This document shows positions 38,339 to 42,835 of a stretch of DNA of 64,000 nt, piece after piece. Position numbers and translations under genes: made by a program. The notes beneath the pieces were generated by a model. It was not told the origin of the DNA and ran no database searches. It saw nothing but the letters and a program-made list of their open reading frames with translations. This DNA is from an uncultured Prevotellaceae bacterium (GTDB taxonomy: Bacteria > Bacteroidota > Bacteroidia > Bacteroidales > Bacteroidaceae). Where the stretch lies: positions 186,001 to 250,000 of the forward strand of contig OMXS01000003.1 in NCBI GenBank assembly GCA_900315095.1, given 5' to 3'. How positions within the stretch are numbered: the stretch's first letter is position 1; every line of letters begins with the position of its first letter.

Positions 38339-39133
38339 TTATTTCTTTATCTCTATGTCGCGCTTTACGTTGTTGCGTATCTTGGCGAGGTAGTTCTTCA
38401 TGCCCTCGGCGTCTTTGTTGTCGATGATCTCGAGGAGTTCCTTGAGTTCGGTGCGTATCTTGGCGACGTTCTCGCTGGTGTAGGGGTTGAAGAGGACCTC
38501 CTGCAGGAGGAAGTCGTCCTCGTTGAGCACTCCCTTGGCGATGCGCATGTGTCGCTTGAATGTTGTTCCGGGCGCGTCCTGGTGTTTCATGACGGCGGCG
38601 AAGACGAAGGTGCTGACGAAGGGTATGGAGAGGGAGTAGGCGACGGTGCGGTCGTGTTCCTCGAAGGAGTACTCGTAGATGTTGAGTCCCAGTTTGGTGT
38701 AGAGGTCCTTGAAGAAGAGCCGTCCTATGAAGTCGCCCTCGTTGATGATGATGGCGTTCTCCTCTGACAGTTGGTTGAGGTTGGCGAAGGTAGGACCGAA
38801 CATGGGGTGTGTGGAGGCGTAGTGCATGCCCGTTGTCTCGTAGAACTCCTTGAGTCCTGTCTTCACCGACGAGATGTCGCTGATGATGCAGTCCTTGGGG
38901 AGGTATGGTATGACCTCCTTGAAGGCTGGTATGGTGTATTTTACCGTCACGGCATTGATGACGAGCTCTGGCTTGAACTCGCGTATCTCCTCCAGTTCGG
39001 TGAAGCGCAGCGTGTTGTATGTGAAGCGCAGTCGTCTGGGGTCTTTCTCGAATACTGCTGTCTCGTGCTCGAAGCTGAGCAGGTCGAGGAAGAAGCTTCC
39101 CATCTTTCCTGCTCCTAATACTAATATTCTCAT
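38339..39133 (-). CDS. tyrA: Prephenate dehydrogenase
   Basis: This 264-residue NAD-dependent enzyme converts prephenate to 4-hydroxyphenylpyruvate for tyrosine. The Rossmann motif is LVLGAGKMGSFFLD; DISSVKTGLKEF and STHPMFGPT are TyrA signatures. It is shorter than proteobacterial TyrA because chorismate mutase is fused to DAHP synthase in the gene upstream. Fourth gene of the attenuated aromatic operon. Confidence 0.92.
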   Translation of the reverse strand: MRILVLGAGKMGSFFLDLLSFEHETAVFEKDPRRLRFTYNTLRFTELEEIREFKPELVINAVTVKYTIPAFKEVIPYLPKDCIISDISSVKTGLKEFYETTGMHYASTHPMFGPTFANLNQLSEENAIIINEGDFIGRLFFKDLYTKLGLNIYEYSFEEHDRTVAYSLSIPFVSTFVFAAVMKHQDAPGTTFKRHMRIAKGVLNEDDFLLQEVLFNPYTSENVAKIRTELKELLEIIDNKDAEGMKNYLAKIRNNVKRDIEIKK

Positions 39134-39143
39134 TGTTTCGTTT

Positions 39144-39280
39144 TTAGCCCCCTAAGTTAGGGGGTTGGGGGTCTGAACAAGCACATTTCAGACCGGTTTA
39201 GTGTTTGTATGGGTTCTGTGCTTGAGAACCGTGTGGTGTGAGGAGGTTCAGACCCCCAACCCCCTGACTCAGGGGGCTAA
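39144..39280. repeat. 35-bp inverted repeat inside the aromatic operon
   Basis: The arms 39144-39178 and 39246-39280 match at 33 of 35 positions when inverted. Each contains TTAGCCCCCT, AGGGGGTTGGGGGTCTGAAC. One arm starts 1-2 bases after the stop of the DAHP synthase gene and the other ends about 10 bases from the tyrA start. Confidence 0.9.
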
Positions 39281-39281
39281 G

Positions 39282-40346
39282 TCACTTGTTGATGATCTCT
39301 ATTTGCTGTCGCACGCTTTCCTCGTGTATTGCCTCGTAGATTTTCTTGATGAACTCAGAGTCCATGCCGCAGAGGGTGCCCTGTGCGCCGCGCTTGTCGA
39401 GAATCTCGTTGTAGCGTTGTGCCTGCAGCACGGTCATGTTATGCTCTTTCTTGTATTGTCCTATCTCACGGCACACGCGCATGCGCTTTGCGAGGACGTC
39501 CATCACCTGGTTGTCGAGCTCGTCGATCTGCTTGCGCAGTTGGCTGATGCCCTCGGTGGTGACGGTGTCGTCGCGTATGACGAGGAGAGAGAGGATATAG
39601 TCGAGCACATCGGGTGTTACCTGTTGCTTGGCGTCGCTCCATGCCTTGTCGGGGTCGCAGTGGCTCTCGATGATGAGTCCGTCGGCGCCGAGGTCCATTG
39701 CCTGCTGGCACAGCGGTGCTATGAGGTCGCGTCGTCCTCCGATGTGCGAGGGGTCGCAGATGATGGCGAGGTCGGGAATGCGTCGGCGCAGTTCGATAGG
39801 TATCTGCCACATGGGCAGGTTACGGTAGATGGTCTTGTCGTAGCTGGTGAAGCCTCGGTGTATGGCAGCCAGTTTCTTTATGCCTGCCCCGTTGAGACGT
39901 TCGAGAGCGCCTATCCACAGCTCGAGGTCGGGGTTCACGGGGTTCTTCACGAACACAGGGATGTCGATGCCGCGCAGCGCGTCGGCGAGAGCCTGCATGG
40001 CGAAGGGGTTGGCGCTGGTGCGTGCTCCCACCCACATGATGTCGATGCCGTATTTCATTGCCAGTTCGACGTGAGCGGGTGTTGCCACCTCGGTGGTGAC
40101 GAGCATTCCCGTCTCCTCCTTGACTTGCTTGAGCCACTGGAGAGCCGGTTCACCGTGTCCCTCGAAGCCCCCTGGCTTGGTGCGCGGCTTCCACACTCCT
40201 GCACGGAACATGTGGCATCCCTTCTGTGCCAGTTGCTTGGCTGTTTTCATCACTTGTTCTTCTGTCTCTGCGCTGCAAGGACCTGCTATGACGAATGGTC
40301 GTTTCTGGTCGCTTGGCAATTGGAGTTTTTCTAATTCAAGTTCCAT
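39282..40346 (-). CDS. Bifunctional DAHP synthase / chorismate mutase type II
   Basis: The 354-residue protein joins an N-terminal 3-deoxy-7-phosphoheptulonate synthase (residues 1-260: FVIAGPCSAETEEQ, FRAGVWKPRTKPGGFEG, IICDPSHIGGRRDLI) to a C-terminal AroQ-type chorismate mutase (about 265-354: ISQLRKQIDELDNQVMDVLA). It performs the first shikimate step and the chorismate-to-prephenate step, an organisation known in Bacteroidetes and some Firmicutes. Third gene of the aromatic operon. Confidence 0.94.
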   Translation of the reverse strand: MELELEKLQLPSDQKRPFVIAGPCSAETEEQVMKTAKQLAQKGCHMFRAGVWKPRTKPGGFEGHGEPALQWLKQVKEETGMLVTTEVATPAHVELAMKYGIDIMWVGARTSANPFAMQALADALRGIDIPVFVKNPVNPDLELWIGALERLNGAGIKKLAAIHRGFTSYDKTIYRNLPMWQIPIELRRRIPDLAIICDPSHIGGRRDLIAPLCQQAMDLGADGLIIESHCDPDKAWSDAKQQVTPDVLDYILSLLVIRDDTVTTEGISQLRKQIDELDNQVMDVLAKRMRVCREIGQYKKEHNMTVLQAQRYNEILDKRGAQGTLCGMDSEFIKKIYEAIHEESVRQQIEIINK

Positions 40347-40435
40347 AAAAGACTCACCCCCTGCCCCTCCCTGAGATGGAGGGGAGTAGAATGTTTGTGG
40401 GGGATATTCTACTGTGTTATTTTTTATTTTGTTAT

Positions 40436-40514
40436 TTCGTTGTTGTTATCGTTTTCGTTTTCGTTTTCGTTATCGTTATCGTCATCGTCATCGTTATCGT
40501 CATCGTCATTTCGT
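40436..40514. repeat. (CGTTAT/CGTCAT)n hexanucleotide tract
   Basis: About thirteen hexamers of the forms CGTTTT, CGTTAT and CGTCAT follow each other in the gap between the DAHP synthase and aminotransferase genes. The gap also contains CCCCTCCCTGAGATGGAGGGG near 40364-40385, GTTGAGCG words at its right end, and no gene. Confidence 0.9.
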
Positions 40515-40547
40515 GATAACGGGATTTCGGGATAACGGGGTTTTCGC

Positions 40548-40582
40548 TCAACGCTCAACGCTCATCGCTCAACGCTCATCGC
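40548..40582. repeat. GTTGAGCG repeat at the aminotransferase stop
   Basis: CGCTCAACGCTCAACGCTCATCGCTCAACG-type words on the plus strand; on the minus strand the aminotransferase ends S-V-E-R-stop inside this repeat. Confidence 0.85.
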
Positions 40583-41752
40583 TTTTACTCTTTCGAGTGC
40601 CTCCTTCATCTTCTCGTCCTTGGCGCAGAGGGAGATGCGGATGTAGCGTTTGCCGTTGGAGCCGAAGATGAATCCCGGTGTGATGAATACGCGCGCCTCG
40701 TGTAGCACACGCTCTGTGAGCTGCTCGGCATCGGCATAACGCTCGGGAATCTTTCCCCAGAGGAACATTCCCACCTGCTCGGGGTCGTACCGGCATCCCA
40801 GCACCCTCATTATCTCCTCTGCTATGACGCGGCGTCGGCGGTAGGTGTTGATGTTTGCCTCGCGGTGCCACTCGTCGCTGTTGTCGTAGGCCTCTGCTGC
40901 TGCGAGCTGTATTCCGCGGAACGTGCCGCTGTCGATGTTGCTCTTCACCTTGAGTATCCACGAGATGAACTGCGCGTTGGAGGCGCACAGTCCGACGCGC
41001 CATCCCGGCATGTTATGACTTTTCGACATGGAGTTGAACTCTATGCAGCAGTCCTTTGCCCCCGGCACCTGCAGCAGCGAGATGGGATGCTCGTTGATGA
41101 TGAAAGAGTAGGGGTTGTCGTTCACCACCACGATGCCGTGACGGCGCGCGAAGTCCACCAGTCGCTCGTAGGTCTTCATCAGCGCCGGTCCTCCTGTGGG
41201 CATGTTAGGGTAGTTGGTCCACATGAGTTTCACCTTTGTGAGGTCCATTGTCTCCAGCTGCTCGAAGTCAGGCTGCCATTGCTGGTCCTCGCGCAGGTCG
41301 TAGTTCACCACCTTGGCACCGAGAATCTTGCTCAGCGAGGTGTATGTGGGGTATCCCGGGTTAGGCACCAGCACCTCGTCGCCGGGGTTTACGAAGGCGA
41401 GAGTGGTGTGCAGTATGCCCTCCTTGGAGCCTATGAGCGGCTGAATCTCCGTTGCGGGGTCGAGAGTGACGCCGTAGAAACGCTTGTAGAAGCGCGCCAT
41501 GGCCTGTCGCAGCTCGGGTGTTCCCATCGTGGGCTGGTAGCCGTGTGCCGACGGTTGCTGTGCCACTTCGCACAGGCGGTCGATGGTCTTCTGCGACGGC
41601 GGCATGTCGGGGCTGCCTATGGCGAGGCTTATGATGTCCTTGCCCTCGGCGTTCATCTGCGCCACCTCCTTCAGTTTACGGCTGAAATAGTATTCCTGCA
41701 CCAGCGACAGGCGTTCTGCTGGCTTGATGTTAATGTCCTTCATATTCTCCAA
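40562..41752 (-). CDS. Class I/II PLP-dependent aminotransferase (aromatic pathway)
   Basis: A 396-residue fold-type I aminotransferase. LAIGSPDMPP and the PLP lysine in NSMSKSHNMPGWRVG are evident, with NPGYPTY and NYPNMPTG for cofactor and substrate binding, and the C-terminal YIRISLC Arg. In this operon it probably transaminates phenylpyruvate, 4-hydroxyphenylpyruvate or prephenate. Its start overlaps the pheA end by 23 nt (14 nt if the ATG at 41743 is used). The last codons come from the GTTGAGCG repeat. Confidence 0.9.
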   Translation of the reverse strand: MENMKDINIKPAERLSLVQEYYFSRKLKEVAQMNAEGKDIISLAIGSPDMPPSQKTIDRLCEVAQQPSAHGYQPTMGTPELRQAMARFYKRFYGVTLDPATEIQPLIGSKEGILHTTLAFVNPGDEVLVPNPGYPTYTSLSKILGAKVVNYDLREDQQWQPDFEQLETMDLTKVKLMWTNYPNMPTGGPALMKTYERLVDFARRHGIVVVNDNPYSFIINEHPISLLQVPGAKDCCIEFNSMSKSHNMPGWRVGLCASNAQFISWILKVKSNIDSGTFRGIQLAAAEAYDNSDEWHREANINTYRRRRVIAEEIMRVLGCRYDPEQVGMFLWGKIPERYADAEQLTERVLHEARVFITPGFIFGSNGKRYIRISLCAKDEKMKEALERVKAMSVER

Positions 41753-42560
41753 GTATTTTCATTTCTCTTGTTAATGGTGTTATGGCGTCGATGCTCTGGC
41801 GATAGCGTATGATGTCGTCGAAGGTCACATCGACATAGAACTTATACTCCCACTCGCGTCCTATTATGGGCAGCGACTGTATCTTCGTGAGGTTTATCTT
41901 GTAGAAAGAGAGTATCGAGAGCACCTGCGACAGCGAGCCCTCCTCGTGAGGCAGCGAGAAGACGAGGCTCGACTTGTTGGTCTTTGGCAGCGACCTGAGG
42001 AAGTCGGCCTTCAGGGGGTTGCACACCACGAGGAAGCGTGTGAAGTTATGCTTGTTGTCCTCTATCGTGTCCTCCAGTATGCGCATGCCGTGCATCTCGG
42101 CTGCCTCGCGGCTGCATATGGCTGCCCATCCACGGCAGTTCTGCTCCTTGATATACTGTGCCGAGCCTGCGGTGTCCTCAGCCTCCACCATCTTCAGTTC
42201 GGGGTGGTTGGCGAGGTAGTTGCGGCACTGCATCAGCGCCACGGGGTGAGAGTGCACCTCGTTCACCGTAGCCCAGTTGTCCTCGGGCAGACAGCAGATG
42301 CAGTGGCTTATGTGCAGTTTATGCTCTCCCACGACCGTCGTCCCCGACTGCTGCAGCAGTTCGTAGTTGTGCAGCAGGCTCCCCGCGATGGTGTTCTCTA
42401 TCGCCATCATACCAATGGCGGTAGGGTCGCGCTTGATGTTCTCGAACACCTGCTCGAAAGTGGAGCAGCAGATGAGCTGTATCTGCTCTCCCTCGAAATA
42501 CTGATGGGCGGCGATGTCGTGGAAGGAGCCCAACAATCCTTGTATTGCTATTCTTTTCAT
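41730..42560 (-). CDS. pheA: Prephenate dehydratase
   Basis: This 276-residue monofunctional enzyme converts prephenate to phenylpyruvate. IAIQGLLGSFHDIAAHQYF opens the periplasmic-binding-like catalytic domain; MMAIENTIAGSL and NFTRFLVV (the Thr of the TRF motif) are diagnostic. A C-terminal ACT domain (SSLVFSLPHEEGSLSQVLSI and the ESRP-like KIQSLPI) indicates Phe feedback control. First structural gene of the operon, its ATG 5 nt after the attenuator U tract. Confidence 0.94.
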   Translation of the reverse strand: MKRIAIQGLLGSFHDIAAHQYFEGEQIQLICCSTFEQVFENIKRDPTAIGMMAIENTIAGSLLHNYELLQQSGTTVVGEHKLHISHCICCLPEDNWATVNEVHSHPVALMQCRNYLANHPELKMVEAEDTAGSAQYIKEQNCRGWAAICSREAAEMHGMRILEDTIEDNKHNFTRFLVVCNPLKADFLRSLPKTNKSSLVFSLPHEEGSLSQVLSILSFYKINLTKIQSLPIIGREWEYKFYVDVTFDDIIRYRQSIDAITPLTREMKILGEYEGH

Positions 42561-42564
42561 ATTA

Positions 42565-42664
42565 TCAAAAATCCCGCCTCAATCATCTTGAAGCGGGACT
42601 TAAACGTATATTTCTTTTCGTTTGTTTTTCTTAAGTTGAAATCTACACGCAACTTCCCGCTTCA
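42565..42664 (-). promoter_or_regulatory. Phe/Tyr attenuator: terminator and competing antiterminator
   Basis: Terminator: TCCCGCTTCAA (42598-42588) pairs with TTGAGGCGGGA (42582-42572) around a 5-nt loop and is followed by TTTTTG (42571-42566), immediately before pheA. Antiterminator: TGAAGCGGGA inside the leader-peptide frame (42664-42655) pairs perfectly over 10 bp with TCCCGCTTCA of the terminator (42598-42589). The structures are mutually exclusive. Ribosome stalling at the Phe/Tyr codons upstream would leave the antiterminator strand free; completion of the leader would cover it. Confidence 0.88.
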
Positions 42665-42720
42665 CAGTTCCCTGCAAAGTAAAAGTAGAAGTAATAGAAA
42701 GATGCGTAAGACTTGTTCAT
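42643..42720 (-). CDS. Phe/Tyr leader peptide of the aromatic operon
   Basis: A 25-residue frame (ATG at 42720-42718, TAG at 42645-42643) reads MNKSYAS, then the control run FYYFYFYF, then AGNCEAGSCV. Four Phe and five Tyr codons, eight of them consecutive, make it a sensor of charged tRNA-Phe and tRNA-Tyr. The codons E-A-G include the antiterminator strand. It lies about 20 nt after the transcription start and is too short for usual gene finding. Confidence 0.9.
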   Translation of the reverse strand: MNKSYASFYYFYFYFAGNCEAGSCV

Positions 42721-42747
42721 TTCTCTATGTTTTATTTAACTCGGGTG

Positions 42748-42778
42748 CAAAAGTAAAACAAATTCGCGATATAAGCAA
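42748..42778 (-). promoter_or_regulatory. Promoter of the aromatic operon
   Basis: Minus-strand TTG (42778-42776), 20 nt, TACTTTTG (42755-42748). It is the only promoter seen for pheA through the endonuclease-like gene. Confidence 0.8.
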
Positions 42779-42835
42779 ACATTTTGATACTTTTTTTCAC
42801 CGAAAAATGAATTTCTGTCAAATCAACGCGGTTTC

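Follow-up and report, generated by a model that had tools for sequence, protein, structure and literature searches.

A Probable Ribosome-Mediated Phe/Tyr Attenuator Upstream of pheA in Bacteroidia

Introduction

The pheA gene of an uncultured Prevotellaceae bacterium (GTDB family Bacteroidaceae, order Bacteroidales, class Bacteroidia) is preceded by a small ORF with a run of Phe and Tyr codons and by an intrinsic terminator. Does this arrangement act as an attenuator and, if so, how widely is it kept? The locus lies in a window of 64,000 nt, the whole stretch of DNA that was analysed, from a source genome of 3.24 Mb. The best PheA matches among the named loci listed, from which nearer records are possibly absent, are those of Prevotella MAGs (84% identity). 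Classical features of an attenuator are present, namely a leader ORF with cognate codons, a terminator, and an antiterminator that is mutually exclusive with it. The element is very probably a ribosome-mediated transcription attenuator that senses the charging of Phe- and Tyr-tRNA and controls the Phe/Tyr operon, as judged from sequence comparison. This core reading of a preliminary description of the window is strongly supported by the class-wide comparison presented below.

In the proposed mechanism, scarcity of charged Phe- or Tyr-tRNA would stall the leader ribosome in the aromatic run. The leading edge of the stalled ribosome would lie just short of the antiterminator strand (strand 2), which would remain free and would pair with the 5' arm of the terminator (strand 3) once the latter is transcribed, so that RNA polymerase would read into pheA. 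With charged tRNAs the ribosome would reach the stop codon and cover strand 2, strand 3 would pair with strand 4, and transcription would stop. A hairpin between strands 1 and 2 may, while no ribosome occupies the run, either hide strand 2 or make RNA polymerase pause.

Loci and Definitions

The pheA gene was found in 80 of 101, 176 of 201, 80 of 198 and 258 of 296 genomes of four genome sets, and loci were taken from part of these (the best 30, 30, 8 and 30 matches, respectively, some of them repeated). A hand-picked spread of further loci (60 from the family, 40 from the order and 40 from the phylum) and at least 80 loci of named genomes were added. Of the 314 loci gathered, two with short upstream DNA and nine duplicates were removed, leaving 303 distinct ones. 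Families recur in this sample, so that counts of loci are not counts of independent events.

An aromatic leader is defined as an ORF of 8 to 60 codons with at least six Phe/Tyr codons within ten codons. The null expectation for such ORFs was taken from dinucleotide shuffles of the same upstream regions and from their antisense strands. Covariation was scored in alignment A2, which holds 54 regions of the window's own family with leaders of the EAG, EAV, EAE or KAG type, at most 190 nt long and at most 85% alike. Coverage by a ribosome at the stop codon was computed with an assumed E. coli-like footprint.

The Leader Region in the Window

The features of the locus are listed in Table 1. The promoter, the 25-codon leader ORF and its eight successive Phe/Tyr codons are found in the sequence as they had been described, and so is the perfect 10-bp complementarity between strands 2 and 3. 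The terminator and its tract of five U (42571-42567) also stand, but the tract ends 6 nt, not 5 nt, upstream of the pheA ATG (42560). Strand 2 is separated from the terminator by a linker of 56 nt.

Table 1. Coordinates of the leader elements and operon genes in the window.
Feature	Position	Strand	Basis and remarks
Promoter, presumed Bacteroidetes type	42748..42779	-	TTTG (42779-42776), 20 nt, TACTTTTG (42755-42748); read from sequence
Leader ORF, 25 codons + stop	42643..42720	-	MNKSYASFYYFYFYFAGNCEAGSCV; read from sequence
Control region, 8 Phe/Tyr codons in succession	42676..42699	-	read from sequence
Candidate strand 1:2 hairpin (protector or pause)	42660..42679	-	42679-42672 with 42667-42660, GGAA loop; A2 consensus fold
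Antiterminator strand (strand 2), within leader ORF	42655..42664	-	UGAAGCGGGA; read from sequence, pairing tests
Strand 3, terminator 5' arm, perfect 10-bp complement of strand 2	42589..42598	-	read from sequence, pairing tests
Intrinsic terminator (strands 3:4 + U5)	42567..42599	-	fold, covariation
pheA, prephenate dehydratase, first gene	41730..42560	-	PF00800 3.8e-55
Aminotransferase class I/II, second gene	40562..41752	-	PF00155 2.2e-58; listed start TTG, true start perhaps further in
DAHP synthase-chorismate mutase fusion, third gene	39282..40346	-	PF00793 and PF01817
tyrA, prephenate dehydrogenase, fourth gene	38339..39133	-	PF02153 1.1e-9

The TTTG/TAnnTTTG motif upstream of the leader is taken here to be a promoter of the Bacteroidetes type. 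Its spaced form TTTG-N17..22-TAnnTTTG precedes the leader in 125 of 178 regions of the own family versus 0.5% in shuffles, and it occurs in 19 of 41 regions of other families of the order, 14 of 39 of other orders of the class and 0 of 4 of other classes (shuffles across groups, 0-1.7%). Apart from the aromatic run of the leader, no Phe/Tyr run in any of the window's six frames exceeds five residues, and a single one reaches five.

The terminator hairpin (42599-42571) folds with -20 kcal/mol and a z-score of -5.61, a value equalled by none of 200 shuffles. In single-sequence folds of the leader before strand 4 is transcribed, the antiterminator forms whether the ribosome is absent or sits on the last Phe codon. 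With the ribosome at the stop codon the antiterminator is gone, and the whole fold has -10.4 kcal/mol versus -26.0 and -32.6 kcal/mol in the other two states; strand 3 is then not free, being paired weakly and with interruptions to leader RNA just 5' of the ribosome. The complete leader adopts the terminator fold in all four ribosome states tried, and the switch must therefore be kinetic, as is likewise the case in known attenuators.

The Downstream Operon

The preliminary description assigned five genes to the operon. The first four hold in the relatives, since tblastn finds the order pheA, aminotransferase, DAHP synthase/chorismate mutase and tyrA in 14 of 20 of them (L339 among these with wide gaps), but the fifth gene comes next in only three of the 20, the closest ones. 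The DAHP synthase gene or tyrA has moved, is undetected or lies elsewhere in the remaining six. The best NCBIfam match of the window's tyrA is a PRK08655 fragment under its cut-off. An operon that holds both pheA and tyrA fits the presence of Phe and Tyr codons in the leader. Because gaps of 215 nt and 148 nt precede the third and the fourth gene of the window, respectively, we infer rather than observe that the later genes are controlled by the element.

The gap between the second and third genes (40347-40561) contains short GATAAC/GACGAT-like repeats; in the close relative L328 the tblastn matches of these two genes are 30 nt apart. An inverted repeat with CCCCCAACCCCCT arms is found between the DAHP synthase gene and tyrA (39140-39290), its arms being the only two matches to this sequence in the window at up to one mismatch.

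Distribution of the Aromatic Leader

An aromatic leader precedes pheA in 266 of the 278 distinct upstream regions sampled from the class, versus 101 of 5,560 shuffles (1.8%) and 18 of the 278 antisense strands. In the own family it is found at 186 of 192 loci (31 of 3,840 shuffles, 14 antisense strands), in the other families of the order at 41 of 44 (27 of 880, 4) and in the other orders of the class at 39 of 42 (43 of 840, 0). The corresponding figure for other classes is 4 of 25 (7 of 500, 1). Since it is near-universal in the class sample and 21 of the 25 loci from outside the class lack it, the leader is a feature that belongs to the class. The four exceptions in other classes (L248, L254, L275 and L276) possibly reflect joint transfer of gene and leader, or a deeper descent.

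The class loci without an aromatic leader are L044, L093, L115, L117, L125, L134, L139, L170, L206, L297, L302 and L304. The last three belong to one family, in which three of the five upstream regions sampled lack the leader, either because it was lost or because a start is wrongly placed.

Phe and Tyr are each encoded two or more times in all 178 own-family leaders that are followed by a terminator, in 38 of 41 from the rest of the order and in 39 of 39 from the rest of the class. Trp codons occur in 9, 8 and 19 leaders of the same three groups. They are thus an addition often seen in other orders of the class (L250-L274, L301-L312), which would suit an additional response of the shared DAHP synthase step to Trp.

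A covariance model of the element detects one strong copy in the window's own genome (E 2.8e-25), the next hit having an E-value of 0.71 (150 of 831 candidates scored). A plasmid search with the element gave no matches.

Conservation of the Terminator/Antiterminator Switch

A terminator-like hairpin with a U-tract lies 3' of the control codons at 262 of the 270 loci with a leader, and the finder used detected none at the other eight. Pairing between the leader and the 5' arm of the terminator is better than in at least 95 of 100 shuffles of the same stretch at 250 of these 262 loci. Among 42 family representatives, exchange of leaders and terminator arms between loci gives poorer pairing than the native combination in 2,988 of 3,444 comparisons; in non-redundant sets this is the case in 2,136 of 3,120 (family), 2,612 of 2,964 (order) and 1,787 of 2,112 (class) comparisons.

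The position of the pairing is close to fixed. The first pair of the main helix is found 9-13 nt past the last aromatic codon at 206 of 262 loci versus 2,377 of 26,200 shuffles (9.1%) scored in the same way by the main helix, or 2,531 of 26,200 if the first pair of any helix is counted. In the own family, the spacer between the last control codon and the start of strand 2 has a median length of 11 nt. It shows a median absolute deviation of 1, 2 and 1 nt in the own family, the order and the class, versus 2, 10 and 6 nt for the distance from the stop codon; at the four loci outside the class the spacer is the more variable of the two (4 versus 0.5 nt). According to PMC4833913, as many as 12 nt downstream of a stop codon lie under the ribosome when that codon occupies its reading site. 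A footprint of this size would leave strand 2 just free when the ribosome stalls on the last control codon, and we infer that the near-fixed spacing reflects the ribosome edge.

Masking of strand 2 by the ribosome at the stop codon, which had been proposed for the window, is borne out there by position. With the assumed E. coli-like footprint an overlap of at least 4 nt is found at 205 of 262 loci, but not at all of them. Strand 2 also lies inside the leader frame of the window, as previously described, the window's leader being of the EAGS type. Within the ORF, frame 0 holds a GCGGGA-like strand 2 motif at 80 of the 178 own-family loci, frame 1 at 2 and frame 2 at 44; the motif lies at or after the stop codon in 16 and is absent as written in 36. 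Leaders of the window's type accordingly encode EAGS, others encode KRE or end before the motif. That strand 2 is read in different frames among genera shows conservation of the RNA, not of the peptide.

The preliminary description had suggested aligning the upstream regions of Prevotellaceae. The leader proved to be conserved beyond this group and the terminator covaries in A2, with 39 double-changed cells among the 54 sequences, a score reached in none of 500 shuffles. The antiterminator helix, however, shows no covariation in A2: 89.6% of its cells are paired, 489 of 500 shuffles reach its score, and the last two pairs at one end are broken in 14 and 20 of the 54 sequences. Strand 2 is nearly fixed within the own family. 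Given this near-fixity and lack of covariation, support for the pairing of strands 2 and 3 comes from comparison between families, from its position and from its excess over shuffles.

A Candidate 1:2 Hairpin Involving the Last Control Codons

In the layout first proposed there was no separate anti-antiterminator hairpin. The relatives make this doubtful, since they keep a hairpin at the end of the aromatic run whose 3' side overlaps the 5' half of strand 2. In A2, 99.3% of its cells are paired and 21 are double-changed, a number that none of 500 shuffles reaches. Covariation is mainly that of one pair: 20 of the 21 cells belong to the pair closing the loop (A-U in 29 and G-C in 19 of the 54 sequences), and four of the eight pairs are invariant. 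The loop is of the GNRA type in 30 of the 54 sequences. The evidence is weaker outside the own family. The local fold is better than in at least 95 of 100 shuffles at 116 of 178 own-family loci, 18 of 41 of the order and 6 of 39 of the class. Strand 2 would be masked at 142 of 178 own-family loci versus 65% of shuffles, while the values for order and class are lower than those of shuffles (three of the 41 order loci, with a spacer above 25 nt, were excluded from this test).

Counted from the end, the last three control codons of the own family are near-fixed as TTT (172 of 178), TAC (174) and TTT (165), and aromatic codons farther upstream vary at synonymous third positions. The hairpin could act as the 1:2 structure of the classical scheme, perhaps as a protector or a pause element.

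A longer helix of strand 1 was considered as a candidate and rejected, as its pairing in A2 holds in only 65.1% of cells and 48 of 500 shuffles are as good. Pairing of the strand 2 core with the upstream leader exceeds that of at least 57 of 60 shuffles at 2 of 178 loci in the own family, 5 of 41 in the order, 7 of 39 in the class and 1 of 4 in other classes, where 5% would be expected. A wider test, of the leader start against strand 2 plus the sequence after it, gave 69 of 178, 8 of 41, 18 of 39 and 1 of 4 at the same threshold. Own pairing of the longer strand 1 exceeds swapped pairing in 28,393 of 35,644 own-family comparisons. Overall, the compact 1:2 hairpin appears better supported by the sequences than the longer helix.

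A second small hairpin (A2 columns 76-87; GCGG-NNNN-UUGC or CCGU) falls in the 3' half of strand 2 and shows one-sided changes only.

Other Amino Acid Operons of the Same Genome

A clear cognate leader with a terminator close by was looked for in the hisG, ilvB/ilvD and thrA regions of the source genome and was not found in any of them. A small ORF before ilvD (MKHLRVVFVSNCLCFVKIFKYLLVIR; L320, 1244-1325) has six Ile/Leu/Val residues in ten, is not followed by a terminator and is probably due to chance. The trp operon region (L323, contig C50, reverse strand) has a leader with three Trp codons (MNKSVFAAWWWRYSRLEQS, 2923-2983) and a terminator from 3016. Antiterminator pairing of this trp leader does not exceed that of shuffles (188 of 300 as good).

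Alternative Explanations

The sequence features of the locus could be accounted for in other ways. Control could be exerted on translation, the hairpin blocking the pheA start until a leader ribosome opens it, with no transcription stop there. The short distance of 6 nt between the end of hairpin plus U-tract and the pheA start in the window would suit this. Across the loci, however, a U-tract comes after the hairpin (medians of 6, 7 and 7 T in the next 8 nt for the three main groups), and between 7 and 227 nt (medians of 29, 35 and 31 nt) separate the hairpin from pheA, which makes translational control improbable. A slightly smaller probability is given to an arrest peptide, in which free Phe or Tyr, and not uncharged tRNA, would stall the ribosome on a specific nascent chain. 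The aromatic run indeed ends in FYFYF in 100 and in YYFYF in 55 of the 178 own-family leaders, but the fixed codons at the end of the run can equally be explained by RNA pairing. The order and number of Phe and Tyr codons moreover differ among families, with Trp, Asn and Gly intruding, and the carboxyl-terminal part of the peptide shifts frame; what stays constant is aromatic content and RNA spacing.

That the ORF codes for a functional small protein that merely happens to lie 5' of pheA would fit the conservation of the leader sequence within the genus. The finding of the RNA motif in other frames or past the stop codon, together with terminator pairing above shuffles at 250 of 262 loci, renders this very improbable. 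Least credible of all, to the point of being negligible, is a chance association of an AT-rich ORF with an unrelated terminator: ORFs of this kind do occur in 1.8% of the shuffles of class regions, and 18 of the 278 antisense strands carry one, yet they are present on 266 of 278 sense strands, and chance would also have to produce the terminator z-score of -5.61, a perfect 10-bp alternative pairing and the near-fixed spacing. Ribosome-mediated attenuation of transcription thus remains the preferred reading.

Relation to Known Systems

The E. coli pheA attenuator provides the details with which the element was compared. A 2004 FEMS survey by Vitreschak and colleagues reportedly names a few Bacteroidetes cases of attenuation. 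The general scheme of the trp/his/phe-type ribosome-mediated attenuators of enterobacteria is given in PMC1183508. Like these, the present element has control codons for its own end products, an intrinsic terminator and a mutually exclusive antiterminator; its control codons adjoin or lie in the candidate strand 1, and its stop codon is placed for masking of strand 2 by the ribosome. It differs in having both Phe and Tyr codons, in its presumed Bacteroidetes promoter and in that, in the window, the antiterminator strand lies within the leader ORF. The Rfam model Phe_leader (RF01859) scores 17.5 bits (E 2.6; gathering cut-off 55), among chance-like matches, and a search of the whole window with Rfam 15 at gathering score gave no match to any family, T-box and riboswitches included.

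The statement that documented examples in Bacteroidetes are few needs to be qualified: such elements are not wholly undocumented, although no class-wide study was found in the literature as far as it was accessible. A putative attenuator of the B. thetaiotaomicron genes pheA > hisHb > aroAIb-aroQ > tyrA was listed in 2005 from Merino's website (PMC1173090, Table 7). Its gene order is identical to that described here and it is probably the same element. The accessible part of PMC1173090 lists the attenuator only; leader ORF, control codons and distribution are provided by the present analysis. Structured 5' elements without Rfam hits were reported in 2021 before pheA and other genes of Flavobacterium psychrophilum and other genera of Flavobacteriaceae (PMC9723704); for amino acid operons that paper sees 'strong clues' of attenuation through leader peptides. 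The likeness lies in a structured region before pheA without Rfam hits, its anatomy not being given in the section compared. The uORFC-13-1 motif before aroF of Acholeplasma, as presented in PMC8632094, similarly combines a Phe-containing uORF and a terminator 5' of an aromatic gene, but phylum, gene and structure are all different.

Small ORFs of B. thetaiotaomicron are called reminiscent of leader peptides in PMC7366714, in whose accessible text the word phenylalanine is absent. The main text of PMC2965389 has no word starting with Bacteroid, and PMC1262725 cites the survey by Vitreschak and colleagues. The literature searched, mostly outside subscription journals and accessible in part, contained no paper that deals with the distribution over the class, with the spacing or with the 1:2 hairpin. 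The element is unusual for its spread across the class, for a spacer of nearly constant length and for a hairpin in which control codons may take part.

Implications for Bacteroidota

Does the attenuator date back to the ancestor of the class? Descent from this ancestor (or spread together with pheA), with a ruler of about 11 nt between control codons and strand 2 and with the last control codons serving as strand 1, is a tentative reading whose chances we place just short of even. If it is true, the leading ribosome would have to keep close behind RNA polymerase throughout the class. Bacteroidota make little use of Shine-Dalgarno starts. Word searches of the literature, in the part accessible to them, turned up no test of transcription-translation coupling in this phylum. 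Attenuation by a leader ribosome needs close coupling, and the 266 of 278 upstream regions with an aromatic leader are thus comparative evidence that coupling works in Bacteroidota, for which the element offers a ready reporter. It would also be a natural sensor of Phe and Tyr in a major lineage of the gut and rumen.
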